A DNA stretch of 49,543 nucleotides. It comes from a virus. The notes under the pieces were generated by a model. It ran no database searches. It saw nothing but the letters and a program-made list of their open reading frames with translations, and was not told the DNA's origin. Position 1 is the first letter of the stretch, and each line of letters opens with the position of its first letter. Both the position numbers and the translations under genes were made by a program. The stretch lies in IMG/VR virus record IMGVR_UViG_3300038678_000142, positions 1-49,543 of that record. One strand, 5' to 3'. Shown piece after piece: positions 28,449 to 43,985 of this stretch.

Positions 28449-28505
28449 ACAACGGAAGAACCCCGCGTTCACTCGTGGGACAAACAAATCAAGCGAGAAC
28501 TGAAA
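28449..28505 (+). repeat. Intergenic start-associated element, copy 1
   Basis: The gap before the 28506 gene carries GGAAGAACCCC, TTCACTCGTGGG and AAGCGAGAAC just upstream of the ATG. The last block matches the one before the gene at 32214 (AAGCGAGAACAAAAG). It belongs to the dispersed family described in the findings. Confidence 0.4.
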
Positions 28506-28673
28506 ATGAGCGAATCGACGGAACGAAAACAACGGATGATGCACTGGACGTGCCGGAAGTGCAGCCACAAATGGGATACGCGGATTCCGATGGAACAGAA
28601 TTCAATGTTTCAGGACGACGCGCATGAAAAAACGATCTGCGATAAGTGCATCGACGAGATGGGGCAGCGGTGA
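28506..28673 (+). CDS. 55-aa zinc-ribbon protein
   Basis: A 55-aa protein with CRKCSHKW and CDKCIDEM knuckles, a compact four-cysteine zinc ribbon. ATG 28506 is used because the longer frame runs back into the upstream terminator. Small ribbons such as this are common in this part of the genome; role unknown. Confidence 0.6.
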   Translation: MSESTERKQRMMHWTCRKCSHKWDTRIPMEQNSMFQDDAHEKTICDKCIDEMGQR

Positions 28674-28729
28674 CGAAAGGTTCATTGTACTTATTTTATA
28701 GGGCGAACGTACTAGAAAAGGGCATAGCT

Positions 28730-29347
28730 ATGGGCAAGAGTAAGTCATCCGCATTAGAGCTGATCCAGCATGTCTGGGATCATAACCGGGAAGGCACTGG
28801 CTTTTCCTGGGAGAGGTTGAACCAGTCGATGTATTCGTCAGTGAAATTGGCGATCGGGTCCGGTTTAAAGTTCGGGAAATCAGACTTTGAATACATCGCA
28901 GAGAAGATGCGGGTGGGGTATTGGTGTGGGGCCGATGGTGGCGAGCCTTGGTATTCGCTTGCAATCAAGATGGGTAACTCCAGTGCGATCGCAGCATTTG
29001 AGCAATGGAAGAACCGAAAACCATTTCTGATTCAAACAGACTTTGAAAAGCCGGTAAGGATCAGGATGCAGGTCGGTTCAAGGTTCTGGTGGACGAAAGA
29101 TTTCGAGGAGAGATTTTACGTCACTCTAACCAGCTTCTCTGGAGATCAAGACTACATCACAGCAGTCACCTACAAAGAACGACCAGAGCCTCAAAAATGC
29201 AAATGGTGCAATCAACAGGAGCATCAATACGACAGTGTAAAAATAAAACGGCGTTTCAAAATAACCCATAAAGATATCAAAGATTATCACGCGGCATTGA
29301 AAGACTTAAAAAAGGAAAGAGAAGAGAAATCCATGTCGGCAGCTTAA
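28730..29347 (+). CDS. Hypothetical protein with C-terminal Cys knuckle
   Basis: A 205-aa protein. ATG 28730 has AAAGGG 7 nt upstream; an in-frame GTG at 28670 is an alternative. The sequence is rich in aromatic residues (MRVGYWCGADGGEPWYSLAIKMG, QVGSRFWWTKDFEERFYVTL) with a CKWCNQQEH knuckle and a lysine-rich helical tail. I do not recognise the family. Confidence 0.5.
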   Translation: MGKSKSSALELIQHVWDHNREGTGFSWERLNQSMYSSVKLAIGSGLKFGKSDFEYIAEKMRVGYWCGADGGEPWYSLAIKMGNSSAIAAFEQWKNRKPFLIQTDFEKPVRIRMQVGSRFWWTKDFEERFYVTLTSFSGDQDYITAVTYKERPEPQKCKWCNQQEHQYDSVKIKRRFKITHKDIKDYHAALKDLKKEREEKSMSAA

Positions 29348-29348
29348 C

Positions 29349-29396
29349 GAACCGGTAAGGGTTACTCCCACGCCACTGTAGCGGAAAGATACAAAA
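29349..29396 (+). repeat. Intergenic start-associated element, copy 2
   Basis: After the stop of the previous gene come CCGGTAAG, ACTCCCACGCCAC and GTAGCGGAAAG, then the ATG. ACTCCCACGC recurs near 31627 and similar blocks precede other genes downstream. Confidence 0.4.
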
Positions 29397-29687
29397 ATGA
29401 TCGCAACAAACAATATCGGCCAACAGGATAACTGGCGTGGTGTGGATCGCGGAACAGGTGATTCGTTTACGACCACCACGTTTGCGAACGTCACGGCTGA
29501 TGGTTGTATTGCGATGGTTGACGAAGATTGGATTGAGATTTGGTATCGGGAAGATTTCCTCGAATTTATCTCCGAGGGTGTTCCATCCCTTTGGATGCAC
29601 GGAATCATAAAGGGGCGGTCCCTGAAGTTCGTCAAGTTGCCGTGTACGAGGTATGCACGCGGCCGAACGGGGAAAGGGGCGGGCTGA
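29397..29687 (+). CDS. Hypothetical protein
   Basis: A 96-aa protein with a polar glycine/threonine-rich start (NWRGVDRGTGDSFTTTTFANV) and an aromatic acidic centre (EDWIEIWYREDFLEFI). It stands alone between two intergenic gaps. No motif is recognised, and no strong ribosome site precedes it. Confidence 0.45.
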   Translation: MIATNNIGQQDNWRGVDRGTGDSFTTTTFANVTADGCIAMVDEDWIEIWYREDFLEFISEGVPSLWMHGIIKGRSLKFVKLPCTRYARGRTGKGAG

Positions 29688-29773
29688 CCTGATCAAGACA
29701 CACCAAGAATAAACCGAGACTTTAGCGTTGCTTACTAGTGACGTTGGGGAGTTGGGAGACGACGCCCTTACCT

Positions 29774-29799
29774 TCCGGTGCATAGGTCAACCGGGTTTT
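29774..29799 (+). terminator. Weak terminator before ASCH-like gene
   Basis: CCGGT (29774-29778) pairs with ACCGG (29789-29793), followed by G and five T. The 5-bp stem makes it weak. It sits in a 132-nt gap (29688-29819) without a gene. Confidence 0.35.
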
Positions 29800-29819
29800 T
29801 GAAACAACTGAGGAAAACC

Positions 29820-30548
29820 ATGACAACGAAAATCAAAACACGACGCCTGATCCTCACCCCGCACGAAGCGTCTGGCATCCCCGGCGGTACGGTTACGCAG
29901 ATACGGCGTGTGGTTGATCCGCAGCCGCCAAGTATCGAGGCAGTGAAAGAGTTGGCCGGAATCGGGTACGACTGGATTGAGCCTAACGGCACGTTTGATT
30001 ACTGGCGTGTCGCTGGTCCCGTTTGGGCTGTCAAGGAATTGATGGGGTTGGAAAAAAGCCCCAAGCTGAAATGCCCGTTCGGATATCCAGGGCAGCGGCT
30101 GTGGTGCGCGGAGACTCACCAATTTAAGTGGCCTGAAGATTGCTTCGATCCTGAAATTAACGGACTGTTTGAGGATTGGGCCGAAGCTGTTTACCGAGCA
30201 GACGGCTATGACATTTCTGATTTATGTGATGCTGACACTGGCGAGGATCTTCATTGGCTCCCATCGTCCCAGATGCCGCGTTCCGCCTGCCGTACCGTGG
30301 TCGAGGTGCTGTCCGTTCGATTTGAGACGTTGCAGTCGATCACTCCAAAAGATGCAATCGCTGCGGGCGTACCAACCGAGCCGTATGAAGGGACTCTGAA
30401 TGGTGAGCCTGCAACGATTTATCCAACAGATCCAGTCTATATGTTTGGGGCGTCGTGGAATTTGATTCACAAAGTTGGAAGCCCAACCGACTGGAACGCA
30501 AACCCATTCGTTTGGGTCGCGGACGTGAAACCGTGCGAGAAGGAATAG
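29820..30548 (+). CDS. ASCH/PUA-like phage protein
   Basis: A 242-aa protein. ATG 29820 (MTTKIKTRRLIL) is used; GAGG lies 8 nt upstream. QIRRVVDPQPP near the start, CPFGYPGQRLWCAETHQFKW in the middle and the C-terminal WDANP-like block (here WNANPFVWVADV) match a phage family with an ASCH-type fold that probably binds RNA or modified nucleotides. The function in phages is unknown. Confidence 0.6.
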   Translation: MTTKIKTRRLILTPHEASGIPGGTVTQIRRVVDPQPPSIEAVKELAGIGYDWIEPNGTFDYWRVAGPVWAVKELMGLEKSPKLKCPFGYPGQRLWCAETHQFKWPEDCFDPEINGLFEDWAEAVYRADGYDISDLCDADTGEDLHWLPSSQMPRSACRTVVEVLSVRFETLQSITPKDAIAAGVPTEPYEGTLNGEPATIYPTDPVYMFGASWNLIHKVGSPTDWNANPFVWVADVKPCEKE

Positions 30549-30597
30549 CTCACGCATGCGGCATTTTGCAACAGATTGAGGAAATTATGGATGCGAT

Positions 30598-30852
30598 ATG
30601 AAAATATTCGACCCGAACAAAATAAAGCCAGGGGAGTCATTATCTGGCGTCATCTTTAAGTGCGATCTGTGCGGGCGTCGTGGGCGATGGTCGATATCAT
30701 GGTCTCGATTCTGTGGGATCGATGATAGTTTTCCAGAGACACTGTTTTCGTGTGGATGCAGAGTCCCGGACGAGACAGAGGCAGAGATTCTAAGGCGGCG
30801 TAAGATTAAGTCTGGCGGGCGTAATGTCAGGTCTGCCAGGAAAGGGTGCTGA
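30598..30852 (+). CDS. Zinc-ribbon protein
   Basis: An 84-aa protein with CDLCGRRG and FSCGCRVP, a four-Cys ribbon flanked by a basic tail (RRRKIKSGGRNVRSARKGC). GAGGAAA lies in front, and an ATG in another frame lies 10 nt upstream. It resembles the other small ribbon proteins of this region. Confidence 0.55.
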   Translation: MKIFDPNKIKPGESLSGVIFKCDLCGRRGRWSISWSRFCGIDDSFPETLFSCGCRVPDETEAEILRRRKIKSGGRNVRSARKGC

Positions 30853-30913
30853 CGACGGTGGAAGTGAATATCACGCAGCGAAAAATCAAACACTTTGAAG
30901 GGAGAATTAGACC

Positions 30914-31057
30914 GTGACAAAACTGGAGATTATGACGAAAGCGTTTTCCGCACTGGGTGACACGCAAATTAAACGGATGAAGCAATACGTTGATGCTGGG
31001 AGAAAGTTCCTCTGCGGTAATAATTACCTTTTGTATTGCAAGGACGGGATGGGCTGA
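30914..31057 (+). CDS. 47-aa small protein
   Basis: A GTG start at 30914 has AAGGGAG 9 nt upstream, one of the better ribosome sites here. The 47 residues are helical and basic (FSALGDTQIKRMKQYVDAGRKFLCGNNYLLYC). The same frame stays open for 73 codons after its TGA (31055-31057), which is unusual. Function unknown. Confidence 0.55.
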   Translation: MTKLEIMTKAFSALGDTQIKRMKQYVDAGRKFLCGNNYLLYCKDGMG

Positions 31058-31351
31058 CCCGGTGCTGTTGCAGGTGGCGGTCCGCTACTAAAAACCACTG
31101 TCAGTGGTGCCAACTTAAGCCAAAGTCAAAGGAACAGATGGGGTCCGCAGATTAATATTCTTACGGATGCAGTATTGACGGTTGATAACGAAGGCTTCCT
31201 TGGCATGTTGGAAAAATGCACAAACACGACACTCAAAGCAGCCGTGAACAGAACCTACAAGAATCGTTTTGAAGAGTAGTGCGAAGAAATGGAAACTCAC
31301 GCAGCGTCTAACGCAGCGGTAAGTATTGTCTTTTCAATTGGAGGTGATGTG
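31058..31351 (+). other. Gap with 15-bp palindrome and open frame lacking a start
   Basis: No gene with a start is seen. ACCACTG-T-CAGTGGT (31094-31108) is a perfect 15-bp palindrome, operator-like or a tight hairpin. From 31058 to 31279 the frame of the preceding 47-aa gene stays open, so this may be a broken C-terminal extension. The segment 31277-31322 contains a copy of the dispersed element (TAGTGCGAAGAAAT, ACTCACGCAGCG and GCAGCGGTAAG). Confidence 0.35.
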
Positions 31352-31603
31352 ATGGCTGCAATTGCTTTGAGTAAAGAGTGTCTTTCAATTCTGGATCATA
31401 CGGTTTGCCGAGCGGCGCAAGGACGGTACTGCGGTGACTCGCCGGAGATGCAGATTCTTGTTTCGATGGGACTGATGGAGTCAGCAGGCAAAGTGTCGTG
31501 GGTTCCTGACGAGTATTTCCATATCACCGAAGAGGGGCGTCGAGTGCTGAGCGACTTCCAAAAGAGTGCCGGATCGGTGCCGGGGGGATGGGAATCGAAA
31601 TGA
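31352..31603 (+). CDS. Small winged-helix-like protein
   Basis: An 83-aa protein. GGAGGT lies 6 nt before ATG 31352, a near-perfect ribosome site that rules out the longer 31289 start. LSKECLSILDHTVCRAAQG, then MGLMESAGKVSWVPDEYFHITEEGRRVLSDF, has the helix-helix-wing layout of small winged-helix proteins, ending with the ITEEGRRVL motif seen in such folds. It could bind DNA, although the recognition helix is not basic. Confidence 0.55.
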   Translation: MAAIALSKECLSILDHTVCRAAQGRYCGDSPEMQILVSMGLMESAGKVSWVPDEYFHITEEGRRVLSDFQKSAGSVPGGWESK

Positions 31604-32172
31604 ACCAACCAAGCGAGAAGGTCAACTCCCACGCTACATGCCCGAGATGCAACGACACGAAGAAAGTACAAGGCATAGATGCCGCGAGCGGTCGTATTGT
31701 TGAGAATTCGGAGACGGACTGCCCAGCCTGCGTGTCGAGCAGTTCCGATCCTGCGCCGGAAGATGGGGGCAGCGTGATTATCGACGGACTGATAGATGAA
31801 AACAAAGAGCTGAAAATTCAGCTTGAAGCGGTGACGCAGAAGTTTACGGATCTTGTGCATTCATACGACAGGGTGACGGCGGAGCGGGACCGGCTGAAGG
31901 AATCGATGGATTTCATCAACGGAAAAGTACGTGGGTTTATGGCCGAGGTCAATCCACTGCTCGGGCTGGACGATGACGCCGATTCAGTTGATCTGACTGA
32001 GTCCGTCAAAGCATTACTGAAGGAACTGGAAGCGGCAAAGAGGATTATTGATTTACTTCCAAGGTTAGATAGCACTTTGGGGCTAATCCAAATGGAATCG
32101 GAAAAGGCTGCGGAGGAGTGGGAACAGGCGATTGATGAATGGCACGAAATTGAAAAGCAGTCGAAGGACTAG
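31600..32172 (+). CDS. Zinc-finger coiled-coil protein
   Basis: A 190-aa protein. CPRCNDTKK and CPACVSS form a DnaJ-like zinc knuckle at about 14-46, followed by a long coiled coil (NKELKIQLEAVTQKFTDLVHS, RVTAERDRLKESMDF) and an acidic helical tail. ATG 31600 overlaps the upstream stop (ATGA); ATG 31588 is also in frame but sits inside the likely ribosome site. Role unknown. Confidence 0.55.
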   Translation: MNQPSEKVNSHATCPRCNDTKKVQGIDAASGRIVENSETDCPACVSSSSDPAPEDGGSVIIDGLIDENKELKIQLEAVTQKFTDLVHSYDRVTAERDRLKESMDFINGKVRGFMAEVNPLLGLDDDADSVDLTESVKALLKELEAAKRIIDLLPRLDSTLGLIQMESEKAAEEWEQAIDEWHEIEKQSKD

Positions 32173-32213
32173 CGTTTCTCCCGTGATCGGGAACTACTAA
32201 GCGAGAACAAAAG
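32173..32213 (+). repeat. Intergenic start-associated element, copy 3
   Basis: TCCCG-TGAT-CGGGA forms a 5-bp hairpin, followed by ACTACTAAGCGAGAACAAAAG and the ATG of the DUF5131 gene. TCCC-A/G-TGATCG also occurs at 36691, and AAGCGAGAAC at 28488. Confidence 0.45.
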
Positions 32214-33149
32214 ATGGCTGAAAACACGAAAATCGAATGGACGAATCACTCGGCGTCTCCATGGTATGGATGCAGCAAGGTCCACACGGGATGTGACCAC
32301 TGCTACGCTGAATCGATGAGCAAGCGTAACCCCGATACCCTTGGTGTCTGGGGCGACGATGGCACGCGAGTGAAAAGCAAGTCGTTCATTTCCAATCTTG
32401 AGAAGTGGAATCGGCTTGGCGAGAAGGAGCAGAGAGTCCAGTCCGTCTTTCCGTCTCTGTGTGATCCGTTCGAGGACCGGCCGGAGATGGAATCGTGGCG
32501 TCGAGAGATGTTCGAGGCTGTTGACCGGCTGCCGTGGGTTCGGTTGTTACTGCTCACGAAGCGACCGGAGAACATCCGGAAGATGTGGAATAGGAAACCG
32601 GGCTGGGCATGTCACAGAGACCACACGCGAGACGTTGGCGGATGCCGAACCTGCGTTCCTGCGACAGATTACCGCTCCAACGTCTCCCTCTATTACTCCG
32701 CGTCCGACCAGGAATCACTCGAAGCCGGGATCGGTGACCTGTTGAAGTGCAGGGATCTCGTGCCGGTGCTGGGGTTGAGTCTGGAGCCGCTGGTGGGGCC
32801 GATTGACCTGCATCATGCGATGTGTGGATGCGATTCGATGACTCTTACCGAACCAGTAGTAGGTTGTCTCGACCACGTCATCGTAGGCGGAGAGTCTGGG
32901 CCGGGGGCGAGACCGTGCGTGATCGATTGGATATTAGACATCCTGTGCCAGTGCAGGTCTGCTGGCGTTCCGTGTTTCGTGAAACAACTCGGTGCTGATC
33001 CAATAAAGACTGTGCAGCAACCACGGGAACGGCCTGTCACTCGATTCAAGACGGTCCCCCTGAAGGACTCAAAGGGCGGGGACTGGTCAGAGTGGCCGGA
33101 ATATTTGAGGGTACGAGAGCAGCCGGAGACGGCGGGAGTTGAACAATAA
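32214..33149 (+). CDS. DUF5131 (phage Gp37/Gp68) protein
   Basis: A 311-aa protein with the hallmark start KIEWTNHSASPWYGCSKVHTGC-DHCYA, three cysteines arranged as in radical-SAM-like Gp37/Gp68 proteins, and the downstream motif WVRLLLLTKRPENI and VGGESGPGARP. The biochemical role is unknown; the fold suggests a TIM barrel with a metal cluster. It is coupled to an ASCH-like gene (TAATG), a pair often found together in phages. Confidence 0.85.
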   Translation: MAENTKIEWTNHSASPWYGCSKVHTGCDHCYAESMSKRNPDTLGVWGDDGTRVKSKSFISNLEKWNRLGEKEQRVQSVFPSLCDPFEDRPEMESWRREMFEAVDRLPWVRLLLLTKRPENIRKMWNRKPGWACHRDHTRDVGGCRTCVPATDYRSNVSLYYSASDQESLEAGIGDLLKCRDLVPVLGLSLEPLVGPIDLHHAMCGCDSMTLTEPVVGCLDHVIVGGESGPGARPCVIDWILDILCQCRSAGVPCFVKQLGADPIKTVQQPRERPVTRFKTVPLKDSKGGDWSEWPEYLRVREQPETAGVEQ

Positions 33150-33511
33150 TGCGGAATATGAGTTTTTCACTGACAACTGATCAATTCCTCGACGGTTCAA
33201 AAGACGTGACTCGTCGTCTCGGATGGTGGTTCCTGAAACCCGGCGACAGGTTTCGCGCTGTCCGTAAAGCGATGGGACTCAAGAAGGGCGAGAAGGTTGA
33301 GCCGCTTGGAGTCTGTGAGGTGGTTGAAGCGTATCCTGTACGCCTCTGCGATATCACAGAGTCGGACGTCAAGCGCGAGGGGTTTAAAGGGGTGAGCGAG
33401 GGGGACTTTGTTTCGATGTTTTGCAAGCACATGAAATGTCTGCCCGCAACCGAAGTCAATCGGATCGAGTTCAAGCGAATTGAGCCGGTAACGGCGGGAG
33501 GCGAAGAATGA
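33149..33511 (+). CDS. ASCH-domain protein
   Basis: A 120-aa protein. NMSFSLTTDQFLDGSKDVTRRLGWWFLKPGDRF followed by LGVCEVVEAYPVRL, the ITESDVKREGF helix and FVSMFCKHMKC is a classic ASCH domain (a PUA-like fold that binds RNA or modified nucleosides). Coupled to DUF5131 upstream and overlapping the next gene by 4 nt. Confidence 0.8.
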   Translation: MRNMSFSLTTDQFLDGSKDVTRRLGWWFLKPGDRFRAVRKAMGLKKGEKVEPLGVCEVVEAYPVRLCDITESDVKREGFKGVSEGDFVSMFCKHMKCLPATEVNRIEFKRIEPVTAGGEE

Positions 33512-33864: not shown

Positions 33865-33900
33865 TGCGAGAACACACTACTCAACCGTTGCGGCAAAATT
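33865..33900 (+). repeat. Intergenic start-associated element, copy 4
   Basis: TGCGAGAACACACTACTC then CCG-TTG-CGG and CAAAA lie between the stop of the previous gene and the ATPase gene. The block GCGAGAAC-ACAC-ACTC aligns with other copies. Confidence 0.4.
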
Positions 33901-33926
33901 GAACAGAATTCAAGGAGCGAGTTTTC

Positions 33927-35609
33927 ATGGGAATAAAAATATCACAAAAACTGACGCTGCCTGACGCGGCGGTCACGTGGAAATGCGGTCTACTCGGGCG
34001 GACCGGCTCCGGAAAAACGAACACCGCTGTTGTGATGGCCGAGCAGATGATCCAGAACGGTGACCCGGTTGCCATCCTCGACCCCCAGGGCGACTGGTGG
34101 GGGTTGCGCTCAAAATACAAGATTGTCATTCTCGGTGGTGAACACGCGGATATTCCGCTGGAGCCTTCCGGCGGAACAGTGGCAGCCGACTTTCTGATCA
34201 ATGAGCGAATTCCCGTTCTATTCGACCTGTTCACGATGGGGGAGGGGGAAATGGTCCGGTTCGCCGGAGACTTCGCAAAACGTCTCTGGCAAGCGAACAG
34301 AGGTCCGCTGCATATATTTCTGGATGAGGCCGATTTGTTTGCTCCTCAGAACATGACAGGCAAAGGGGGCAAGGCTGTCTGCCTGGGAGCCTGGCAGAAC
34401 ATTGTTCGACGCGGACGGTCCCGTGGATTGGGTTGCACGATGATCACTCAGCGATCAGCGGTGATCAACAAGGATCTTCTGACGCAGGCCGACCCATTAT
34501 TCGTTCATCGGCTGACCGCTCCGCAGGATCTGGAGGCTGTTAAGAGATACCTGGACTTCCACGGGCAATCCAGAGATCAGATCAAGCAAACATTATCTGA
34601 GGTAGCAAAACTGAAGGTCGGGGAATGTTTTGTGATCTCTCCTGGGACTCTGGAGATCGAACCGACAAAGCTCTCCGTTCTGAAGCGTAAATCGTTCGAT
34701 TCGTCCGCAACGCCAGAGTCAGGGCAGAGTATTCGGAGCCCGAAATCGTTCGCCGATGTGGACCTATCCGCACTTAAAAGCCAGATGGCCGACACAATCG
34801 AGCGTGCGAAGGCCAACGATCCGAAGGAATTGAAAAAGAAAATCGCTCGCCTGGAAAAAGATCTGAAGTCTCAGGCTCCAGTGGCAGACGAGAAAGCGAT
34901 TGAGCGGGCCAAGATGGACGAGCGTAAGCATTGGCAGGGGGAGATTCGGAAGCTCCAAAAGAATCACGAATCACTCACCGGGAAGCTCTCGAAGATCAAC
35001 GCCCTCAGTCAGATGAATGGGGATGCTTCGATCGCCGTTGTTGAACCTCCGAAGCTTCCCGCTCCGATGCGCGGATCTACAGTACATCGTCCCGTGCATA
35101 ATTCAGCACCAAAACAACAACCCTCATCACACGCGAACGGGGACGTTCAACTAAGCAAGCCAGAGCGCGCGATCATTCAGGCGTTTTACTGGCTCAAAGA
35201 CGAGCAGGCAAACAAAGCAAAAATCGGTTTCTATTCCGGCTACTCAATGAAATCGAGCGGACTTGACAAGGCTATCAGCAGTCTGCGGACTCGGGGATTC
35301 GTGTCGGGCTGGGCAATCACCGATGAGGGAGAATCATTTATGGTCGATCTGGTTGAGCCAAAGCCCGGTGGTGAAGAACTGAGGGAGTGGCTTCGACCGA
35401 AAATTGGCAAACCCGCAAACGTCGTTCTCGATTCTCTTATCGAGCGATACCCGGATCGATTACGGAAGGAAGAGGTTGCCGAACTAAGCGGCTACAGCGA
35501 CAGAAGTTCTGGGCTCGATAAGGCGTTGAGCTTTTTGCGAACAATTGAAGCTGCGAGCGGAACCGACCGAGACGGCGGCACAATAGCAGCGGACGTATTT
35601 TTTGAATAG
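33927..35609 (+). CDS. HerA/FtsK-like ATPase with tandem winged helices
   Basis: A 560-aa protein. The N-terminal P-loop ATPase has Walker A GRTGSGKT (24-31), Walker B HIFLDEAD (129-136) and an arginine-rich RRGRSRGLGCTMITQRS segment, as in HerA/FtsK/DUF87 proteins. A coiled coil follows at about 265-345. The C-terminus has two copies of a winged-helix unit sharing YS-x-x-SSGLDKA and LRT (about 430-470 and 515-550). DNA translocation or remodelling is likely; its phage role is unknown. GGAGCGAG lies before the ATG. Confidence 0.75.
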   Translation: MGIKISQKLTLPDAAVTWKCGLLGRTGSGKTNTAVVMAEQMIQNGDPVAILDPQGDWWGLRSKYKIVILGGEHADIPLEPSGGTVAADFLINERIPVLFDLFTMGEGEMVRFAGDFAKRLWQANRGPLHIFLDEADLFAPQNMTGKGGKAVCLGAWQNIVRRGRSRGLGCTMITQRSAVINKDLLTQADPLFVHRLTAPQDLEAVKRYLDFHGQSRDQIKQTLSEVAKLKVGECFVISPGTLEIEPTKLSVLKRKSFDSSATPESGQSIRSPKSFADVDLSALKSQMADTIERAKANDPKELKKKIARLEKDLKSQAPVADEKAIERAKMDERKHWQGEIRKLQKNHESLTGKLSKINALSQMNGDASIAVVEPPKLPAPMRGSTVHRPVHNSAPKQQPSSHANGDVQLSKPERAIIQAFYWLKDEQANKAKIGFYSGYSMKSSGLDKAISSLRTRGFVSGWAITDEGESFMVDLVEPKPGGEELREWLRPKIGKPANVVLDSLIERYPDRLRKEEVAELSGYSDRSSGLDKALSFLRTIEAASGTDRDGGTIAADVFFE

Positions 35610-35610
35610 A

Positions 35611-35648
35611 TACGAGAAACCACAACTCATTGTACTAGGCGCGAAAAG
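35611..35648 (+). repeat. Intergenic start-associated element, copy 5
   Basis: TACGAGAAACCACAACTC, then TGTACTAGGCGCGAAAAG directly before the ATG at 35649. Same block order as other copies: GCG-GAA, CACAACTC, then a GCG-GAA block ahead of the ATG. Confidence 0.4.
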
Positions 35649-35921: not shown

Positions 35922-35971
35922 GTAAGAGACGGTAATCACAACAATCCCCGCACTGGAGGCGGGATAACCCC

Positions 35972-35999
35972 GAGCGGGACGGATGCCCGCTCACTTTTT
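35972..35999 (+). terminator. Terminator after 35649 gene
   Basis: GAGCGGG (35972-35978) pairs with CCCGCTC (35986-35992), followed by ACTTTTT. Just before it, CCCCGC-ACTGGAG-GCGGG forms a second hairpin preceded by ACGGTAATCACAACAAT, a copy of the dispersed element. Confidence 0.7.
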
Positions 36000-36675: not shown

Positions 36676-36722
36676 CGCGGTAACAACACGTCCCATGATC
36701 GTCTAAAGCAGCGGTAACAAAA
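36674..36722 (+). repeat. Intergenic start-associated element, copy 6
   Basis: Begins at the TGA stop with CGCGGTAACAACACGTCCC, then ATGATCGTC, and ends AGCAGCGGTAACAAAAC. GCGGTAAC occurs at both ends of this copy. It is upstream of the cytosine methyltransferase gene. Confidence 0.45.
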
Positions 36723-36747: not shown

Positions 36748-38052
36748 ATGAGTTTAACAGTTGGAAGTCTTTTCGCCGGCATCGGCGGCTTCGATCTCGG
36801 GTTTGAACGGAGCGGAATCGTACCTGTCTGGCAGGTCGAGAAAGACGACAATTGCAACAGGATCTTAGAGAGGCACTGGCCCGACGTGCCGAGGTACAGG
36901 GATGTCACGGAATTCGGAAAATCAACTACCACTGTTCAGCCAGACATCATCTGCGGAGGATTTCCCTGCCAAGACATCTCAGTGGCTGGTTGCCGCGCAG
37001 GATTGGCGGGTGAGCGATCCGGACTCTGGTACGAGTACGCCAGAATCCTTGATGAGTTCCGTCCCAGTTGGGTTTGTATCGAGAACGTCGCTGGCCTTCT
37101 GTCAAGTTGGAGTGCCATCGAACCGGAGGCGATGCAAATACCGTCTGACGCGAGCGAAGGATGGGAAATTGAAGTGGAAGAGAGTAGCGACCTTGAGACG
37201 ATCCTCTTTGAGTTGGAAAAACTCGGGTATCGGTGGCTCTACTCTGTCAGTGACTCTCAGTGGTTCGGAGTTCCCCAGCGACGCCGTCGCGTGTTCATTA
37301 TCGGACATCTTGGAAACAGGACCGGTGGACTCGAAGTATTATTTGAGCCCGAAAGCATGTCGGGGGATTCTCCGCCGAGCCGAGAGGAGAAATCGAGAAT
37401 TGCCAGCACGCTTACATCAGGCGTTAGAGTCAGTGGCAACGCTCCAGGACGACGGAGAGAAGACGACGTGAATATCGTGGCAGCAACTTTAAATAGCGGT
37501 GGCAACTCGGGCGGGTTCAGGACCGAGCCTGGGGAGCATCTGGTAGCCGATACGTTCCGGATATGTGGCTTCGGTGACTACGCTGCCTCTGCCTCTGCCT
37601 CTGCCGTCAAAGCGAGGGACCATAAGGACGCGACGGATCTGATTGCCTACCAGTGCCAGGGTTCCAATGTTGGTCCGATGGGTACGCTTCGGGCGGGGAA
37701 CGGGAATGAGACAGGTGGGGTTCCGTTTGTATGGGCCCTGCATTCTGAGAACTCAAACGCTGGTAAGAACGGAGTGGGCCCCGCAATCGCAGATAGGGCG
37801 AGATGCTTGGATGTGAATGGCGGATATTCAACAAGCCAGGGAGGGAACCTTGTACAGGGGGGCCCGGAAATGTCTGTTCGCCGGCTGACACCACGGGAGT
37901 GCGAGAGGCTTCAGGGTTTTCCCGACGATTGGACGCGATTTGACAGCGAGGGGAAACAACTCAGCGACTCGGCGCGTTACCGGGCCCTGGGGAACGCGGC
38001 AACGGTGAATGTGACGGAATGGATCGGGAGCCGGTTCCCGACGAGCGGGTAA
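36748..38052 (+). CDS. C5-cytosine DNA methyltransferase
   Basis: A 434-aa enzyme that transfers a methyl group from SAM to C5 of cytosine in a specific sequence. Motif I is SLFAGIGGFDLGF, motif IV GGFPCQDIS with catalytic C74, motif VI ENV at 112-114, motif VIII QRRRRVF and motif X GNAATVN near the end. The target-recognition region at about 215-375 is glycine/serine-rich. The enzyme probably protects phage DNA from host restriction. ATG 36748 is used over the 36736 start. A long overlapping frame at 36902-37471 runs inside it. Confidence 0.93.
   Translation: MSLTVGSLFAGIGGFDLGFERSGIVPVWQVEKDDNCNRILERHWPDVPRYRDVTEFGKSTTTVQPDIICGGFPCQDISVAGCRAGLAGERSGLWYEYARILDEFRPSWVCIENVAGLLSSWSAIEPEAMQIPSDASEGWEIEVEESSDLETILFELEKLGYRWLYSVSDSQWFGVPQRRRRVFIIGHLGNRTGGLEVLFEPESMSGDSPPSREEKSRIASTLTSGVRVSGNAPGRRREDDVNIVAATLNSGGNSGGFRTEPGEHLVADTFRICGFGDYAASASASAVKARDHKDATDLIAYQCQGSNVGPMGTLRAGNGNETGGVPFVWALHSENSNAGKNGVGPAIADRARCLDVNGGYSTSQGGNLVQGGPEMSVRRLTPRECERLQGFPDDWTRFDSEGKQLSDSARYRALGNAATVNVTEWIGSRFPTSG
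36902..37471 (+). CDS. Overlapping ORF inside the methyltransferase gene
   Basis: A 189-codon frame (+1 relative to the methyltransferase) with GAGG (36891-36894) 7 nt before its ATG. The translation is serine-rich, then ends in VACSLSDILETGPVDSKYYL followed by SPKACRGILRRAERRNRELP. I recognise that C-terminal pattern (SLSD-x-LE, KY-YLSPKA, GILRRAE-R) from many phage hypothetical proteins. The host frame in the same bases encodes LFEPESMSG, also a familiar phage methyltransferase stretch. So the region may encode two proteins, or one set of database entries may be a shadow. Confidence 0.45.
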   Translation: MSRNSENQLPLFSQTSSAEDFPAKTSQWLVAAQDWRVSDPDSGTSTPESLMSSVPVGFVSRTSLAFCQVGVPSNRRRCKYRLTRAKDGKLKWKRVATLRRSSLSWKNSGIGGSTLSVTLSGSEFPSDAVACSLSDILETGPVDSKYYLSPKACRGILRRAERRNRELPARLHQALESVATLQDDGEKTT

Positions 38053-38082
38053 ATACTATCTCATTAAACGAGGAGAGAGCCG
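38048..38082 (+). repeat. Intergenic start-associated element, copy 7
   Basis: GGGTAAATACTATCTC-ATTAAAC-GAG forms a small CTC/GAG hairpin before GAGAGAGCC and the GTG. ATTAAACG also occurs in the copy before the adenine methyltransferase. Confidence 0.4.
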
Positions 38083-38307
38083 GTGGGGAAGAAAAAATCT
38101 AAAACGATACCTGTTTTGAGCTTTAGTCCGCCACATTCAGGGGAGGCGGTCAATTACAGGATTGACTCAGATTATGGTTGGAAAGAAGCCCTCGGAGCGA
38201 TTCGCAGATTTATTGATATCGAACCCGGCGACGATCAGCTAATGATCACAAAGCGTGAGATGAATCTGGCAGAATTTGAATCATTACCAGAGCATGATGG
38301 ATGGTAG
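38083..38307 (+). CDS. Hypothetical small protein
   Basis: A 74-aa protein with GTG start and GGAGAG 5-8 nt upstream. It begins GKKKSKTIPVLSFSPPHSGE and ends in an acidic helix (MNLAEFESLPEHDGW). No family is recognised; it lies between the two DNA methyltransferase genes. Confidence 0.5.
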   Translation: MGKKKSKTIPVLSFSPPHSGEAVNYRIDSDYGWKEALGAIRRFIDIEPGDDQLMITKREMNLAEFESLPEHDGW

Positions 38308-38345
38308 TGCGAAGAAATCTTGGTTCTCGCAGAGTGAACAAACAG
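38305..38345 (+). repeat. Intergenic start-associated element, copy 8
   Basis: TAGTGCGAAGAAAT, then TTCTCGCAGAGTGAACAAAC. The first 14 bases are identical to those at 31277-31290, and in both places they contain the stop codon of the gene or frame just upstream. Confidence 0.5.
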
Positions 38346-38634: not shown

Positions 38635-38671
38635 CAGCGGTAACCAGGAGTCCATTAAACGTGGGAATATT
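38632..38671 (+). repeat. Intergenic start-associated element, copy 9
   Basis: TAACAGCGGTAACCAGGAG, TCCATTAAACGTGGGA and ATATT directly before the adenine methyltransferase ATG. AGCGGTAAC also occurs in the copy before the cytosine methyltransferase. Confidence 0.45.
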
Positions 38672-39544
38672 ATGACTACAGAAATGAAAGTGAAGGCGAT
38701 CGCACCGTGGTTCGGCTCCAAACGCAATCTTGCACCGGATATCATTGCTGAATTGGGTCCGCACCGCGCCTATTGGGAGCCGTTCTGCGGTTCAATTTCC
38801 GTGCTGCTTGCCAAGCCTCGAAGTTCAATGGAAACGGTAAACGATCTCAACGGCGACCTGGTGAACCTTGCACGCAGAATCCAAGACCCCAAAACCGGAC
38901 TGGATCTGTATCGACGTCTTCGGAGAACTTGGATGTGTTCCGACCTGTTCCGGGATTCGGCAGTCATTATTAAAGAGCATCCGTTCCAAGCAACTCCGGA
39001 GAGAGCGTTTCATTATTTTGTCTTTTGCTGGATGGGGCGCAACGGAGATTCGGGGACAACAAAAGTCGGATACCATTTCTGTAGGAGATTTACGAAAAAT
39101 GGTGGCCATGCAGCCACGCGGTTCAAGAATGTCGTCGATTCCATACCCGCTTTCAACGACAGGATGCGAAATATAACAATTCTCAATGATGACGGTTTCG
39201 GTCTTCTGGAAAGGATCGAGGATGCCGATGGCGTCGTTCTGTATCTCGATCCGCCATACATCGAGAAAGGTGCTAAATATGTCCACGATTTTAATCAGGA
39301 TGATCATGCTCGGCTTTCGGAACTGCTTCAGAGATTCAAGAAAACCCGCGTCGTAGTCAGTTACTATGAACACCCTTTGCTCGACAGTCTTTATCCAGGC
39401 TGGACGAAACGACGATTGAAGGCAACAAAAGCGATGGTCAATCAGGGGCGACGTGACAAGGGTGGCGCGGTAGCTGCTCCTGAAGTTCTTCTGATCAACG
39501 GCCCGAGTCTTGTCGAGTCATCCGGCCAAGGAAACCTGTTTTGA
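38672..39544 (+). CDS. N6-adenine DNA methyltransferase (Dam-like)
   Basis: A 290-aa enzyme that methylates adenine N6. FxGxK motif PWFGSKRNL (12-20) binds SAM and the catalytic DPPY is at 193-196 (LYLDPPYIEKGAKY); the region between holds the target-recognition domain. ATG 38672 is used; in-frame starts further upstream run through the neighbouring gene. Together with the cytosine enzyme it would give two layers of protection against host restriction. There is no cognate nuclease nearby, so these are likely orphan phage methylases. Confidence 0.9.
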   Translation: MTTEMKVKAIAPWFGSKRNLAPDIIAELGPHRAYWEPFCGSISVLLAKPRSSMETVNDLNGDLVNLARRIQDPKTGLDLYRRLRRTWMCSDLFRDSAVIIKEHPFQATPERAFHYFVFCWMGRNGDSGTTKVGYHFCRRFTKNGGHAATRFKNVVDSIPAFNDRMRNITILNDDGFGLLERIEDADGVVLYLDPPYIEKGAKYVHDFNQDDHARLSELLQRFKKTRVVVSYYEHPLLDSLYPGWTKRRLKATKAMVNQGRRDKGGAVAAPEVLLINGPSLVESSGQGNLF

Positions 39545-39618
39545 GTAATCGAGAAGCGGCACCTCCACGCGGGGGCGTGCGAAGGATGATATTTCAACCG
39601 TTTTGGAGAGTTGAGGCA

Positions 39619-39831
39619 ATGAAGAAGTTTATCGCGTATTTCATCGTCTGGACGTTTCGGTTTGCTGTCGGATTGTTCTACACGGCGGTAGCAGCCGGAC
39701 TCGGCTTCATTGTGATTACGCGATGGGATACCCCTTCTGTTTTAACTGGGGCTTTTGCCGTCGCAGGCATCCTTGTCTCGCTCTTTTCGTTGGCGTATGT
39801 GTACGAGTGGGCCAAGCGAATGACGCGGTAA
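39619..39831 (+). CDS. Small two-helix membrane protein
   Basis: A 70-aa protein with two membrane helices (FAVGLFYTAVAAGLGFIVI and VLTGAFAVAGILVSLFSLAYV), an N-terminal MKKF and a basic end (WAKRMTR). GAGG lies 2 nt before, and GGAGAG about 9 nt before, ATG 39619. A longer in-frame start (39541) overlaps the methyltransferase and is less likely. The topology fits a small holin; whether it is one is not shown. Confidence 0.55.
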   Translation: MKKFIAYFIVWTFRFAVGLFYTAVAAGLGFIVITRWDTPSVLTGAFAVAGILVSLFSLAYVYEWAKRMTR

Positions 39832-39861
39832 AACGCAGTTCCACGAACCAGACCGTCACCT

Positions 39862-39885
39862 CGCCGGTAAGCCACCCGGCGTTTT
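39862..39885 (+). terminator. Terminator after membrane protein gene
   Basis: CGCCGG (39862-39867) pairs with CCGGCG (39876-39881), followed by TTTT. Short but GC-rich. The region 39829-39870 also carries GCGGTAAAACGC and CACCTCGCCGGTAAG, a partial copy of the dispersed element. Confidence 0.5.
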
Positions 39886-39964
39886 GATTCGATGGCAAGA
39901 ATCATTCCGATGAGTGCCGTGTAAAATACTTGTTGAGCGGCAGCCAAAGTGGTGCGGAAAAGGG

Positions 39965-39991
39965 TTGGCGGTCTGGTTTTTTTGGTACACT
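39965..39991 (+). promoter_or_regulatory. Candidate promoter
   Basis: TTGGCG and TACACT are separated by 15 nt, shorter than the usual 17, in a 201-nt gap (39832-40032) after a terminator. The next gene has its own strong ribosome site 40 nt downstream. Weak evidence. Confidence 0.3.
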
Positions 39992-40032
39992 GCGAAGATA
40001 ACGACCTCATCACTGACTGGAGGATTGAAGCG

Positions 40033-40221
40033 ATGATTTTAAACGTAGGAGATTTAAGAAGAACCACGGCTGACTTGCCCGACGACACTACGATCATTTT
40101 TACTTTTACTCCAAAGGGTAAAGAGCAATTGGATGATGTTTTCGTCGATAGCGTGGATGTCGATCTTCAAGGACCGATTGTTTTGTTTCATCTTCACGAG
40201 GATGCAATGACCGTTCGATAG
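40033..40221 (+). CDS. 62-aa hypothetical protein
   Basis: A 62-aa acidic, beta-rich protein (MILNVGDLRRTTADLPDDTTIIFTF, then VFVDSVDVDLQGPIVLFHL). GGAGG 9 nt before ATG 40033 fixes the start; the 39949 start has none. Small two-sheet proteins of this composition are common in phages; role unknown. Confidence 0.6.
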   Translation: MILNVGDLRRTTADLPDDTTIIFTFTPKGKEQLDDVFVDSVDVDLQGPIVLFHLHEDAMTVR

Positions 40222-40306
40222 TGTCTTAATTTGAAACGCGAATTTTTTGCTTTGGCATGGAATTTGTGTTGATTGAGGCACTGTCCCTGAAAAAAGGGTA
40301 GTGAAA

Positions 40307-40546
40307 ATGACGGAAAGTGAACTCAAGAAAATTGCCGCGAGCTATGCCGTTGCAGCGGGCATCTCGCCTGAGAACCTAATAGATCGAATCATGTCACCTC
40401 ATTGGGAAAAGTCGTTCGGTCAATGGGAAAACCTGGTTCCTGAAGAGTTGCAACCCATTTGGGGTAGACTGACTATTCAGTCTCGTATTGCCGTATTTGT
40501 TGTTTGCGCTGAATCTCTACAAAACTCTCTCGAATTGATGGAGTAG
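40307..40546 (+). CDS. Hypothetical helical protein
   Basis: A 79-aa helical protein (ESELKKIAASYAVAAGI, ENLVPEELQPIWGRLTIQSRIAVFVVCA). ATG 40307 is used; an in-frame GTG at 40301 is possible. AGGG lies upstream. No motif recognised. Confidence 0.5.
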   Translation: MTESELKKIAASYAVAAGISPENLIDRIMSPHWEKSFGQWENLVPEELQPIWGRLTIQSRIAVFVVCAESLQNSLELME

Positions 40547-40582
40547 AGCCAACGATAACTAACGACCACCGTAATTTGTGGA

Positions 40583-40780
40583 ATGGGTGATGCGATGAGC
40601 GAAAGCCAGGGCAATGAGCTTGATCAAAAAAGATTCTATCGATGCTGTGACATGACCTGCGATGGCCTTGCCGATTCTCAGTATTTGCCGGACAGGAGTT
40701 TTTATTGCCCAAAGCACAGAAAGCAGTTGCAGGACGGTGGCCACACGTCGTTTATCCCAATCTATAAAAAGACTCGGTAA
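40583..40780 (+). CDS. Small zinc-binding protein
   Basis: A 65-aa protein with a Cys/His cluster: YRCCDMTCDG and FYCPKHRK, consistent with one zinc ion. ATG 40583 and 40595 are both in frame. No ribosome site is clear. Another small ribbon protein of this region. Confidence 0.45.
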   Translation: MGDAMSESQGNELDQKRFYRCCDMTCDGLADSQYLPDRSFYCPKHRKQLQDGGHTSFIPIYKKTR

Positions 40781-41002
40781 CAGACACTTCATTCATCCGT
40801 TTCCAGAGCAAGTCATTGTAACTCCCCTCCGCGACACGCCTTACATCTTTGCCAGAATTTTCGCAGGATGCCGCGACGTGCCGTGGTTATTTGGACTTGC
40901 AAATAAAATTCATGATGCGATAATCTGCGTTACCAGGGTGTCGATAGTTGAAATTATGAACTGAACCACGATGCCCTGGTAAGCTCGTGCTATAGCAAAA
41001 AA

Positions 41003-41038
41003 CCCCAGCAGGCATCACTGTCTCGCTGGGGTTTTTTT
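41003..41038. terminator. Strong terminator overlapping the next gene's ribosome site
   Basis: CCCCAGC (41003-41009) pairs with GCTGGGG (41025-41031), extended by A residues upstream and T residues (41032-41038) downstream, so it could act in both directions. The 3' arm GGGG is also the only Shine-Dalgarno candidate for the ATG at 41039. In the 202-nt stretch before it (40781-40982) I see no gene. Confidence 0.75.
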
Positions 41039-41329
41039 ATGGCATCCGAAAAGTCGAAAACAGCCTGGTGGATCATCGGACTTCTCAGCACGGCCATGAT
41101 TACAGGGGCAACATCCTGGTTTACGTTCGGCGGCGGAATTACGAAATCTGAAGCTGTGACGATCGTTCGACAGGTCAACGGCCAAGACAAGGTTGTGACG
41201 CGACTTGAAGTCTCGCAAATGATTCAGACTGAATCGCCATACCAAAAAGATAAATCTGGAATACAGCAGCAACTTCGCAGCATTGAAGACACGCTTGACC
41301 GTATCGTCAACAAGTTGGATGCGAGGTGA
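41039..41329 (+). CDS. Membrane-anchored coiled-coil protein, lysis-associated
   Basis: A 96-aa protein. One membrane helix (AWWIIGLLSTAMITGATSWFTF) near the N-terminus is followed by a soluble part that ends in a coiled coil (GIQQQLRSIEDTLDRIVNKL). The layout recalls phage spanin- or XhlA-like lysis accessories. It is followed 2 nt later by the hydrolase. Its ribosome site is inside a terminator hairpin, so translation may depend on that structure opening. Confidence 0.55.
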   Translation: MASEKSKTAWWIIGLLSTAMITGATSWFTFGGGITKSEAVTIVRQVNGQDKVVTRLEVSQMIQTESPYQKDKSGIQQQLRSIEDTLDRIVNKLDAR

Positions 41330-41331
41330 GC

Positions 41332-41883
41332 ATGATCCATAAATGGCACATCCCCATCTCCGGCTTCACCCAGGGCATCGACCGTGCGAACGGATTCGAC
41401 AAACTCTGGCTGAAACTTCGAGACAAAGCAGGTGAGAATGTCAGCGTGGTCACTCCGCAACGGTGGTCGGCTGACTTCGATTCGTTGGCCGACTTTATCG
41501 ACCGGATGAGTCCGGATGGGAAGACTCCGGAGATCAACATTTACGCCTATTCGTGGGGATGTGGTCGCGGATTTATCCAGCTTTCTGAGGAGCTTGGAAA
41601 GCGGGGGCTGATCGTCCTGAACGCTGTCCTCTGCGATCCGGTTTTCTACTCCCGGTGGCGTCCATGGCGGGCAATGGTCGCGTCACCGGCGATCACGATC
41701 CCGAAGAACGTGAATCAGGTCTACTGGTTCTACCAACGGCAAAACAGGCCCTGCGCGACGGAATTGCGTCCTTTGGCGAGTACGACGGCGATTGCCCCAG
41801 GGGTTGAGCTTCGACGTGAACACGCTTGGATGGACGATGCCCCGCAGTTTCACGAAAAGTGCATGGAGGTCGCGGCTATATGA
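41332..41883 (+). CDS. Alpha/beta hydrolase, possible lysis enzyme
   Basis: A 183-aa alpha/beta hydrolase. The nucleophile elbow is AYS74WGCG, a GxSxG variant with Ala at the first position. D102 (LCDPVFYSRW) and H164 (RREHAWMDDA) complete the triad. It lacks the long lid of most esterases. Location in the lysis region and the small size suggest a cell-envelope lipid or ester target, but no lysis domain is present. Start ATG 41332 has GCGAGG 5 nt upstream; GTG 41326 overlaps the previous stop. Confidence 0.7.
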   Translation: MIHKWHIPISGFTQGIDRANGFDKLWLKLRDKAGENVSVVTPQRWSADFDSLADFIDRMSPDGKTPEINIYAYSWGCGRGFIQLSEELGKRGLIVLNAVLCDPVFYSRWRPWRAMVASPAITIPKNVNQVYWFYQRQNRPCATELRPLASTTAIAPGVELRREHAWMDDAPQFHEKCMEVAAI

Positions 41884-43061
41884 AATGTTCAATTCTATTG
41901 CTACTCCTATTGTTGCCGGCGACCGTGAACGCCACAGAAGGTCCATCAGTCCCGGTCATGTGCCAGGAATGTAGTGCATCTTCATGCCGTACGTTTCGAG
42001 GAAGTGGAACCGTCATCCGATACGATCAACGCTATGCCTATGTCTTGACAAATAAACATGTCATCAAGAAAGATGGAGGTGTTCAATGGAAACAGAACAT
42101 CTTTATTTGGGCATATAGCCGGTATCATTCCGGCACAGTGATTGCCGTGGCGTCTGATTCGGACCTCGCCATCATTAAAGTACCTATTCGTACGGAACTG
42201 AACGTGCAAGTAGTTTCTCAAGTACCTCCACGTAACGGAGATTCAGTGACTTTGTCTTCATTCAAACATGGTTCCCGATTTCACCGAGATAACGGTCAGA
42301 TATATCTTACCCTTCCAGTACAGAATGGATATAAGCACGATCCGCATGCCGCCTACGTCACTATTTCCTCCGAACCGGGACAATCCGGAGGAGGTCTTAC
42401 TGATTACTCGGGTCAATTGATTGGAGTCAATTACGGTACGGAAGCAGAAGTATTTAATGGGATACGATATTCGTTGTCAGTTCGTTACGAACACGTAAAG
42501 AACTTCTTATTGAATTCCGGAATGATATCTCGACCACCTCCCATAAAACCGAAAGCACCTCCGCCTCCAAAGGAAAAGCCCAAATCAAAACTGTCTCCCC
42601 GCGACCCAATTGTGGTGAACCCGCCAAAGGAGAAGTTGTCGATACCTGTTGAGGAACCGAATCCTACGCCACCCCGGAAGCTGGTCGGAATTGCGCAGGT
42701 GGTTGAGAACAAAAGCAAAGAGGCCGGATTCCCTTGGGTCGAACTCGCATGGGCAGCGGTTGGTATTGCCATTCCCGCCGCAGGTTGGGCAAGGTCAGCA
42801 TACAAGGCGGCCAAAGTCGTGAAAGCAGTAAGAGGTGCGGTTCCGCAGGGGACTGACCGGACATTCGTTGTGGATGCACCACCGGTCACATCACCAACAC
42901 GAATCGACACGCAATTCGTGAATGTCGAGAGTGATAATTATCAGAGGGCACATCAGCAGGCCCGCCAGGAGATAGCGCGTCGCTACCCCGGTTCTCAGGA
43001 AATATTGGAGGCGGAGTTGAGTCTGACGGAACAGTTTTTGTCCGGACAACCAGCCAGTTAA
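41880..43061 (+). CDS. Secreted trypsin-like serine protease
   Basis: A 393-aa protein. A signal peptide (MKCSILLLLLLLPATVNA) precedes a trypsin-fold domain with H60 (TNKHV), D95 (SDLAIIKV) and S169 (EPGQSGGGL). After about residue 210 a proline-rich linker (PPPIKPKAPPPPKEKPK) leads to a helical region with a hydrophobic stretch (VELAWAAVGIAIPAAGWA) and a C-terminal helix. The protease would act in the periplasm or at the surface. Such an enzyme is unusual in phages; degrading receptor, envelope or lysis-inhibitor proteins is possible. Confidence 0.8.
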   Translation: MKCSILLLLLLLPATVNATEGPSVPVMCQECSASSCRTFRGSGTVIRYDQRYAYVLTNKHVIKKDGGVQWKQNIFIWAYSRYHSGTVIAVASDSDLAIIKVPIRTELNVQVVSQVPPRNGDSVTLSSFKHGSRFHRDNGQIYLTLPVQNGYKHDPHAAYVTISSEPGQSGGGLTDYSGQLIGVNYGTEAEVFNGIRYSLSVRYEHVKNFLLNSGMISRPPPIKPKAPPPPKEKPKSKLSPRDPIVVNPPKEKLSIPVEEPNPTPPRKLVGIAQVVENKSKEAGFPWVELAWAAVGIAIPAAGWARSAYKAAKVVKAVRGAVPQGTDRTFVVDAPPVTSPTRIDTQFVNVESDNYQRAHQQARQEIARRYPGSQEILEAELSLTEQFLSGQPAS

Positions 43062-43076
43062 AGCGGAGGAAAAACA

Positions 43077-43937
43077 GTGCCAGTAATCAATACAGATGCA
43101 GTTTTATGGTACAATGTGGGCGAATTCGGCCAGCTTGGATACGGGGTGCCGAACCCGTCCGACGATCCTGGTTCACTCAATCCGGCGATTATCGATCTGG
43201 TTGAATTGGCGGGTCGAAACCTTTTCGGAATCATGCACCACGAAGACTGTGACATGACTGTCCCGCCGTCGATCAATACGGTTCGGAGGATTCACAAGCT
43301 CTACGTTCGACTGGGGCAGATTCTTGTCTCCCGAGGAGTTCCGTCCGGCGAATTGAACATGGAGACGGATCATATCCAACCGGCTGGAGAAATCTTCAAG
43401 CTCTACCCGATTCCGTATTTCAAGGTGCGGAATAAGTTCATGAAGCGGTGGGCAGAGTTGATTCTGATGATGATCTCGGAAGCCATGCAGCACACTGAAA
43501 ACCGAAAGAGCATGGAAATTTCGGAGACGTTTGCGGGTGCGGTCGGTCAATACATGACTCGCGTGTATCGCAATCTGGCGTCCGAGTTGTTCGGAAAGAC
43601 TCGCGCTGAGGTTCACGTTCCGGGGTTCCTGCTGACAGAGCAGGAGCTTGCGGCCTACGATCCGAGCCAGTTCTTTACGTCGATGGAAATGATCGATACT
43701 GTCCCTCATCTCGGCCACGTCTTCACAGAGGACCGGCTCTCTGTGATTTCAAGCGGAATTCCCGTCACCAGCCTTCCGGAGTTGCTGCCTTGGCCGACAA
43801 ACCTGACCAGCTACTACAACGCAACAAAGGCGTTTCGTGACGCGAATAGCGATGACGCGAACGTGGATGATCCTACCGCAACGGCGGCACCAAGTCCTGG
43901 AGGTGGTCCGATCATTCCGCCACCACCTGGGGCGTAA
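43077..43937 (+). CDS. Structural protein of unknown role
   Basis: A 286-aa protein with GTG start and GCGGAGG 7 nt upstream. A beta-rich start (VLWYNVGEFGQLGYGVPNPSD) and helical core (MKRWAELILMMISEAMQHTENRKSMEI) end in a proline-rich tail (GGGPIIPPPPG). It lies between the protease and the fibre genes and is followed by a terminator. Virion location is probable but not shown. Confidence 0.5.
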   Translation: MPVINTDAVLWYNVGEFGQLGYGVPNPSDDPGSLNPAIIDLVELAGRNLFGIMHHEDCDMTVPPSINTVRRIHKLYVRLGQILVSRGVPSGELNMETDHIQPAGEIFKLYPIPYFKVRNKFMKRWAELILMMISEAMQHTENRKSMEISETFAGAVGQYMTRVYRNLASELFGKTRAEVHVPGFLLTEQELAAYDPSQFFTSMEMIDTVPHLGHVFTEDRLSVISSGIPVTSLPELLPWPTNLTSYYNATKAFRDANSDDANVDDPTATAAPSPGGGPIIPPPPGA

Positions 43938-43952
43938 CGCAGTAAACACAAC

Positions 43953-43985
43953 CCCGCTCTCACTCCCCAGTGAGGGCGGGATTTT
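43953..43985 (+). terminator. Terminator before fibre operon
   Basis: A 12-bp stem (43953-43964 with 43969-43980, one T-G wobble), CCCC loop and ATTTTAAC. The bases before it (CGCAGTAAACACAA) match the first half of the dispersed intergenic element. Confidence 0.8.

Follow-up and report, generated by a model that had tools for sequence, protein, structure and literature searches.

A stop-associated intergenic motif in a virus accessory region, and intergenic linkers of related phages as possible recombination joints

Known intergenic elements and the present locus

The idea of conserved boundaries is of lambdoid origin. Short conserved boundary (linker) sequences have been proposed for phage mosaicism (discussed in PMC3029335). 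The locus studied here belongs to the window, i.e. the whole analysed stretch of 49,543 nucleotides, a 49.5-kb virus record. Its linkers and those of its relatives are comparable to the boundary sequences in layout, with a short conserved border sequence and unrelated genes between, which is explained by homologous recombination at the border. However, in the present case almost all junctions within an array of single genes carried a border sequence. Its copies followed one consensus at all positions, each had a spacer of its own, and they were anchored to stop codons. A short sequence common to phages between non-homologous genes was found in elements 1-4 of the relatives G002 and G003. The promoter early stem-loop (PeSL) cassettes of T4-type phages (cited in PMC4503421) are also repeated intergenic elements proposed to shuffle small early genes. 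As with PeSL, the cassette was kept in G002 and G003 while the flanking genes differed. In contrast to PeSL, no promoter excess was seen (7 sites in the window versus 13.7 ± 3.9 in shuffles, for the sigma-70-like class only), and a stem-loop was not part of each copy (mean folding z 0.00 from the site to +45 nt), with few copies adjoining hairpins. The same value gave no support to the short hairpin that the preliminary description had placed in the repeat.

The start-associated sequences (SAS/ESAS) of cluster K mycobacteriophages lie 3-7 bp before starts and have a tight 13-bp consensus (PMC3203893). The preliminary description named them as the closest analogue, and called the window element start-associated. 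In agreement with SAS, the window motif was a repeated intergenic sequence confined to the non-structural region and to one orientation, and the upstream stop codon may overlap in both. In contrast, the anchor was the stop and the consensus was loose. The main sites began -6 to +8 nt from the end of the upstream stop, which lay inside the motif in four cases, whereas the distance from motif to start was 30-264 nt. The dispersed motif is thus stop-associated, not start-associated, and the label was wrong. Moreover, the 13-bp GGGATAGGAGCCC-like consensus had 0 matches in the window at up to 2 mismatches, so the analogy fails on both position and sequence.

Stoperators of cluster A mycobacteriophages are 13-mers bound by a repressor (PMC9283540). 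They are likewise asymmetric, orientation-matched sites in short intergenic spaces, but no such repressor or consensus was found here, and the L5-type consensus stood at chance level. Integron attC cassettes carry a single ORF with a site at its 3' end in one-way arrays (PMC8618304), as do the arrays described below. Unlike in integrons, no integron integrase was found here, the sites were about 25-30 nt long, and the linkers kept their order instead of new cassettes entering at one end. AAC...GTT ends, as in the attC R''/R' boxes (RYYYAAC...GTTRRRY), were seen by eye in some G002 and G003 copies only.

The stop-anchored motif of the window

The left part of the window contained a lambda-type terminase, portal and capsid module. 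A block of exonuclease VIII-like/RecT-like and DnaD-like genes occupied 23-27 kb, and the accessory region (28-44 kb) encoded a DUF5131 protein, a HerA-like ATPase and two DNA methylases. The exonuclease VIII-like protein (23804-24703) and the RecT-like annealing protein (24693..25616, + strand) gave PHROG hits (phrog_148, phrog_412), and are candidate recombination machinery of this phage. The HerA-like ATPase lay at 33927-35609, and genes 28-46% identical to it were present in at least 11 otherwise unrelated viral contigs, with a DUF5131 gene near in 4 of them. In addition, an open frame without a start codon at 31058-31279, 3' of the short gene 30914-31057, ended in LTVDNEGFLGMLEKCTNTTLKAAVNRTYKNRFEE and a stop; it is possibly a frameshift, a pseudogene or an assembly error. 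Upstream of the capsid gene, 7895-8019 gave a near-threshold Rfam int-alpA match (35.6 versus 35.8 bits, E 0.0009), and no such match was obtained at the capsid leader of five relatives. The major capsid gene leader in relatives (L108, L110, L112, L114, L116, L118, L119, L124, L125, L128, L129) began with GTGTCTCCGT and had a consensus fold with 8 pairs changed on both sides. The region upstream of the capsid gene is a possible capsid-leader RNA.

A 16-nt motif, CG(A/G)(G/T)AA-N7-(A)(C/T)TC, was obtained by expectation-maximisation (EM) in 22 curated accessory-region gaps. The gaps were taken from hand-curated gene ends, and each contributed the 14 nt that precede the end of the stop and the 45 nt that follow it. 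In the null, the stop codon was kept fixed and the flanks were shuffled. The log-likelihood ratio of the motif was 76, against 52.5 ± 2.9 under this null. The leave-one-out (LOO) Fisher p was 4e-9, and 1e-8 without three doubtful gaps. The identical test gave 0.2 for HK97, 0.2 for lambda, 0.88 for PS3 and 7.6e-6 for Lodos, and the last value indicates that other phages can carry stop-side motifs. The motif was absent from structural gaps, from stops without a gap and from the reverse strand. A site profile reached z=7.5 over all window gaps, on which it had been trained, versus z=-1.4 at ungapped stops and z=0.6 at the stops of structural genes; in the named control phages and the HerA relatives |z| was up to 2.2. 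When 80 TerL-matched loci were pooled, the profile scored z=3.6, and 7.8% of their gaps had p<0.05. This small general excess is far below that of the window, but it shows that the null was not perfect. The motif carried some 10-13 bits of information, the 7 nt at its centre varied, and the sequence after its core was C-rich and G-poor (C 36%, G 15%).

The degenerate motif claimed earlier for the 28-44 kb gaps was borne out by the two-block model of the preliminary description as well (z=5.5), and so was its end at the structural genes (z 0.8 in structural gaps); the model gave z 0.1 on the reverse strand of the gaps and -1.6 in coding pieces. The exact repeat TAGTGCGAAGAAAT was indeed present at 31277 and 38305. 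A pair missed earlier, CGTCTAA[C/A]GCAGCGGTAA at 31305 and 36700, was 17/18 identical and longer than in any of 40 shuffles. Gap pairs with unrelated neighbours had these notable 14-nt and 17/18-nt blocks in common (31277/38305 and 31305/36700). The repeat AAGCGAGAAC was found at 32199 as claimed, but its other copy lay at 28491, not 28488, and its one-mismatch count was not above chance (6 versus 4.0 ± 2.0). ACACAACTCCC alone was not clearly enriched (17 versus 11.6 ± 3.2), and the copies listed at 28449 and 32173 were weak or lay elsewhere in the gap. Exact k-mer sharing among window gaps was high, but came mainly from gap 31280, and it was demoted as proof since several control phages reached equal levels. 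The evidence for the motif is independent of k-mer sharing.

All copies given here lie on the + strand. At the left of the region, CGGTGACGAAAGGTTC (28668..28683; EM and LOO p 0.05-0.06) included the stop TGA of 28506-28673 and was followed 3' by ATTGTACT, which is common to 35610. It was followed by CGGTAAGGGTTACTCC at 29353..29368, 5 nt 3' of the stop of 28730-29347 (LOO p 0.04-0.12), and by a probable copy, CGAGAAGGAATAGCTC, at 30536..30551, which spans the stop of 29820-30548 (LOO p 0.003-0.05, and 0.94 in one run). At 31277..31298, the stop TAG was followed by TGCGAAGAAATGGAAACTC (EM and LOO); the first 14 nt, counted from 31277, were identical to 38305-38318. The block CGTCTAACGCAGCGGTAA at 31305..31322 was the 17/18 match to 36700-36717. 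Further copies were CGAGAACACACTACTC at 33867..33882 (LOO p 0.007-0.02) and CGAGAAACCACAACTC at 35613..35628 (LOO p 0.003-0.007), the latter continuing into ...CTAGGCGCG as in G002 linkers. A weak copy, CGGTAATCACAACAAT (35930..35945; EM at w=20), lay 5' of the hairpins and terminator at 35946-35992. The gap with CGGTAACAACACGTCC at 36678..36693 (LOO p 0.04-0.09; p 0.015 with the two-block model of the relatives) held a second core, CGTCTAAAGCAGCGGTAA, at 36700..36717.

In the right part, GGGTAAATACTATCTC at 38047..38062 enclosed a stop TAA (LOO p 0.03-0.06), and ATTAAACG, 3' of it, was common to the 38638 copy. The exact repeat recurred at 38305..38326 as the stop TAG and TGCGAAGAAATCTTGGTTC (EM). 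The copy CGGTAACCAGGAGTCC within TAACAGCGGTAACCAGGAGTCCATT at 38638..38653 (LOO p 0.007-0.02; p 0.005 with the relatives' model) was the window copy closest to the relatives' element. The copies CGAGAAGCGGCACCTC at 39550..39565 (LOO p 0.003-0.04) and CGGTAAAACGCAGTTC at 39826..39841 (stop TAA inside; LOO p 0.003-0.03; terminator at 39862-39881 downstream) were followed by CGATAACTAACGACCA at 40553..40568 (LOO p 0.003-0.02) and CGGTAACAGACACTTC at 40775..40790 (stop TAA inside; LOO p 0.003-0.01). The last copy, CAGTAAACACAACCCC at 43940..43955 (LOO p 0.04-0.13; hairpin z about -5), lay directly 5' of an intrinsic terminator at the border to the structural genes. At 40222-40306, in an intergenic gap that lacks the motif, there was a strong long hairpin (-21 kcal/mol, z=-5.7), and no T tail was obvious.

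Copies thus preceded terminators at 35922, 39832 and 43938, and one stood further upstream in the 40781 gap. For the attenuators suggested in the preliminary description, these few copies before intrinsic terminators agree with the idea, but most copies formed no hairpin. An ECF-like promoter was considered for a faint CGTG 16 nt 3' of the core (columns 22-25), but since some copies directly precede terminators, it was dismissed as a general function. Regarding boxA/nut and Rfam families, there was no Rfam match in the early region.

Linkers of the relatives and their order

Searches of the collections with the terminase, RecT and HerA found no near relative of the window. The first relatives, via HerA (28-46%) and TerL (about 22-31%), were too distant and had no gaps in common with it. 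Through a distant match to the terminase, a contig was reached whose capsid module is syntenic. The capsid protein of this contig (63% identical) in turn led to about 25 relatives with 51-65% capsid identity. The major capsid proteins of the newly found relatives were 58-63% identical to that of the window. Five long relatives (G001-G005) were read, and the detailed comparison covers two arrays. G002 and G003 had small-gene arrays with a clear, analogous stop-associated element, AACAGCGG-N8/9-TTCCG(A/C)TAG. A model built on 18 copies had about 18 matches in G002 (33.26-39.02 kb) and about 7 in G003, where the copies used for building match by construction and several further array copies were found by the model. 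In 85 other loci (1.35 Mb) it had no match at E<0.05. An ORF ended within -10..+4 nt of 13/18 G002 elements, versus 9% at random. The element, placed at the 3' end of single-gene cassettes, forms an imperfect inverted repeat around a spacer of 8-9 nt, and its left and right arms occurred in mixed combinations. Some G002 copies formed good hairpins. As a general feature the hairpin was weak, and the covariation between arms was equalled in 56/500 shuffles.

The window and relatives' elements gave z 2.0-2.6 overall, with spacing that differed by about 2 nt. As judged from the sequences, the window linkers resemble those of the relatives only suggestively overall; the layout appears alike, and gaps 38635 and 36676 are clearly similar. 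The window position weight matrix was not enriched in the relatives, which carry their own version. In pattern scans of viral contigs, the motif consensus had no match, and CGTCTAAMGCAGCGGTAA had four, all in coding sequence and three from one phage type. No similar array was found in deposited phages.

Elements 1-4 of G003 best matched elements 1-4 of G002 in the same order, spacers included, and two elements of G004 best matched G002 elements 1 and 2. None of 300 spacer shuffles kept all six assignments. The genes between were different: the G002 array proteins had no BLASTP match to G003, and the slot 1 protein pair gave nothing at E<=100. In slot 2, the match for G002 was weak and R2K ATP-grasp-like (below the Pfam cut-off), and the gene of G003 encoded a DUF6884 protein. 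Across the 33-39 kb array, element 3 itself was the sole stretch at which the DNA of G002 and G003 matched at E<1e-5, and similarity resumed at the gene after the array (39.15 kb), 93% identical in protein. In G004, elements 1 and 2 abutted at the contig end, joined by 6 nt with no gene between, which is apparently an empty slot. The preliminary suggestion of recombination joints that let small genes shuffle is supported by these ordered elements, by the unrelated genes between them and by the empty slot. The mixed arm combinations and the blocks common to window gaps with unrelated neighbours are in line with it.

Two further observations were made in the relatives. A promoter-like sequence, TTGACA-17-TAAGAT/CATGAT, lay directly 3' of the last array element in G002 and G003 (L189 19018-19060, i.e. 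G002 39.02-39.06 kb; G003 oriented 16800-16835), before the 93%-identical gene. A DNA methylase block (L189 1226-3157, i.e. G002 21226-23157) was 82-86% DNA-identical in comparisons with G004 and G005, whereas the capsid genes of these relatives were only about 67% identical; the modules therefore have different histories.

Possible roles of the linkers

That the linkers are homologous-recombination joints for single-gene exchange between phages is the reading we favor, and we give it an even chance. Each small accessory gene would end in a short conserved linker starting at or within the stop codon, and the linkers of one phage, with their common degenerate consensus, would provide the homology for joining. 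In co-infected cells, a gene between two linkers would be swapped or deleted by annealing or homologous recombination, with linker order left intact, and the exonuclease VIII-like and RecT-like proteins (RecET) might perform the exchange. Since the searches yielded no relative of the early module of the window itself, no exchange was observed at the window linkers; we infer the joint role there, and recombination at linkers and its extension to the more diverged window linkers are both presumed. Several points count against the joint model. With a length of 20-35 nt, the joints are short for general recombination, the elements of window and relatives are only suggestively alike, the empty slot of G004 is at a contig end, and the detailed comparison covers only two arrays. 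Moreover, selection for an expression role could preserve the order of the linkers even if the genes were replaced in some other way. A more specific form, an array of addressed cassettes, is put forward with considerable doubt: a common frame (for recognition or expression) would be combined in each linker with a spacer of its own, and recombination would be limited to linkers of the same number in different phages. Genes would then be swapped slot by slot; linkers of one genome would not recombine to delete what lies between them, and no dedicated recombinase would be required.

Alternatively, the linkers may be expression signals (3'-end processing, attenuation, Rho/terminator-related or translation reinitiation) selected at every junction, with gene replacement incidental. 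We hold this as a tentative possibility. The stop-anchored and strand-specific motif, the copies upstream of terminators, the C-rich, G-poor tract and the good hairpins of some G002 copies are in its favor, but the window had no general hairpin, covariation in the relatives was weak, and phages with different genes have position-specific spacers in common, which a generic signal does not need. Since some copies precede terminators, an expression role may coexist with the joint role. A product of chance and of generic features (stop codons, leaders rich in A, and degenerate blocks that were read flexibly) is unlikely. Any two gaps alone were not unusual, k-mer sharing was matched by control phages, and the initial leave-one-out tests, which covered only the stop and the sequence 3' of it, were weak; however, the stop-keeping leave-one-out test was far stronger, 3/4 control phages were negative, and two relatives had parallel, clearer elements.

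The asymmetry, single orientation and short intergenic, non-structural placement of the motif would also fit an asymmetric site to which a repressor or roadblock protein of the phage binds, similar to stoperators. This is equally improbable, for the low information content with its variable centre, the lack of enrichment of the L5 stoperator consensus, and the lack of a repressor candidate linked to the motif all speak against it. The inverted repeat at the 3' end of the relatives' cassettes and the tyrosine integrase encoded by G002 recall a tyrosine recombinase core site in a site-specific, integron- or dif-module-like cassette array. But neither the window nor G003 yielded a tyrosine or serine recombinase (no PF00589 match in either, and the records may be fragments), which makes an integron-type system unlikely; moreover, each site had its own spacer, the window copies were barely symmetric, and all copies pointed in one direction. 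We consider this reading very improbable.

It is an old question whether phage mosaicism arises via conserved border sequences or illegitimate recombination, and border sequences are usually not found. In this lineage, successive single-gene junctions carry border sequences whose order is fixed; the genes between them are unrelated, and one slot is apparently empty. The border model thereby becomes directly testable, and the linkers may help to locate accessory-gene hot spots in related phages.
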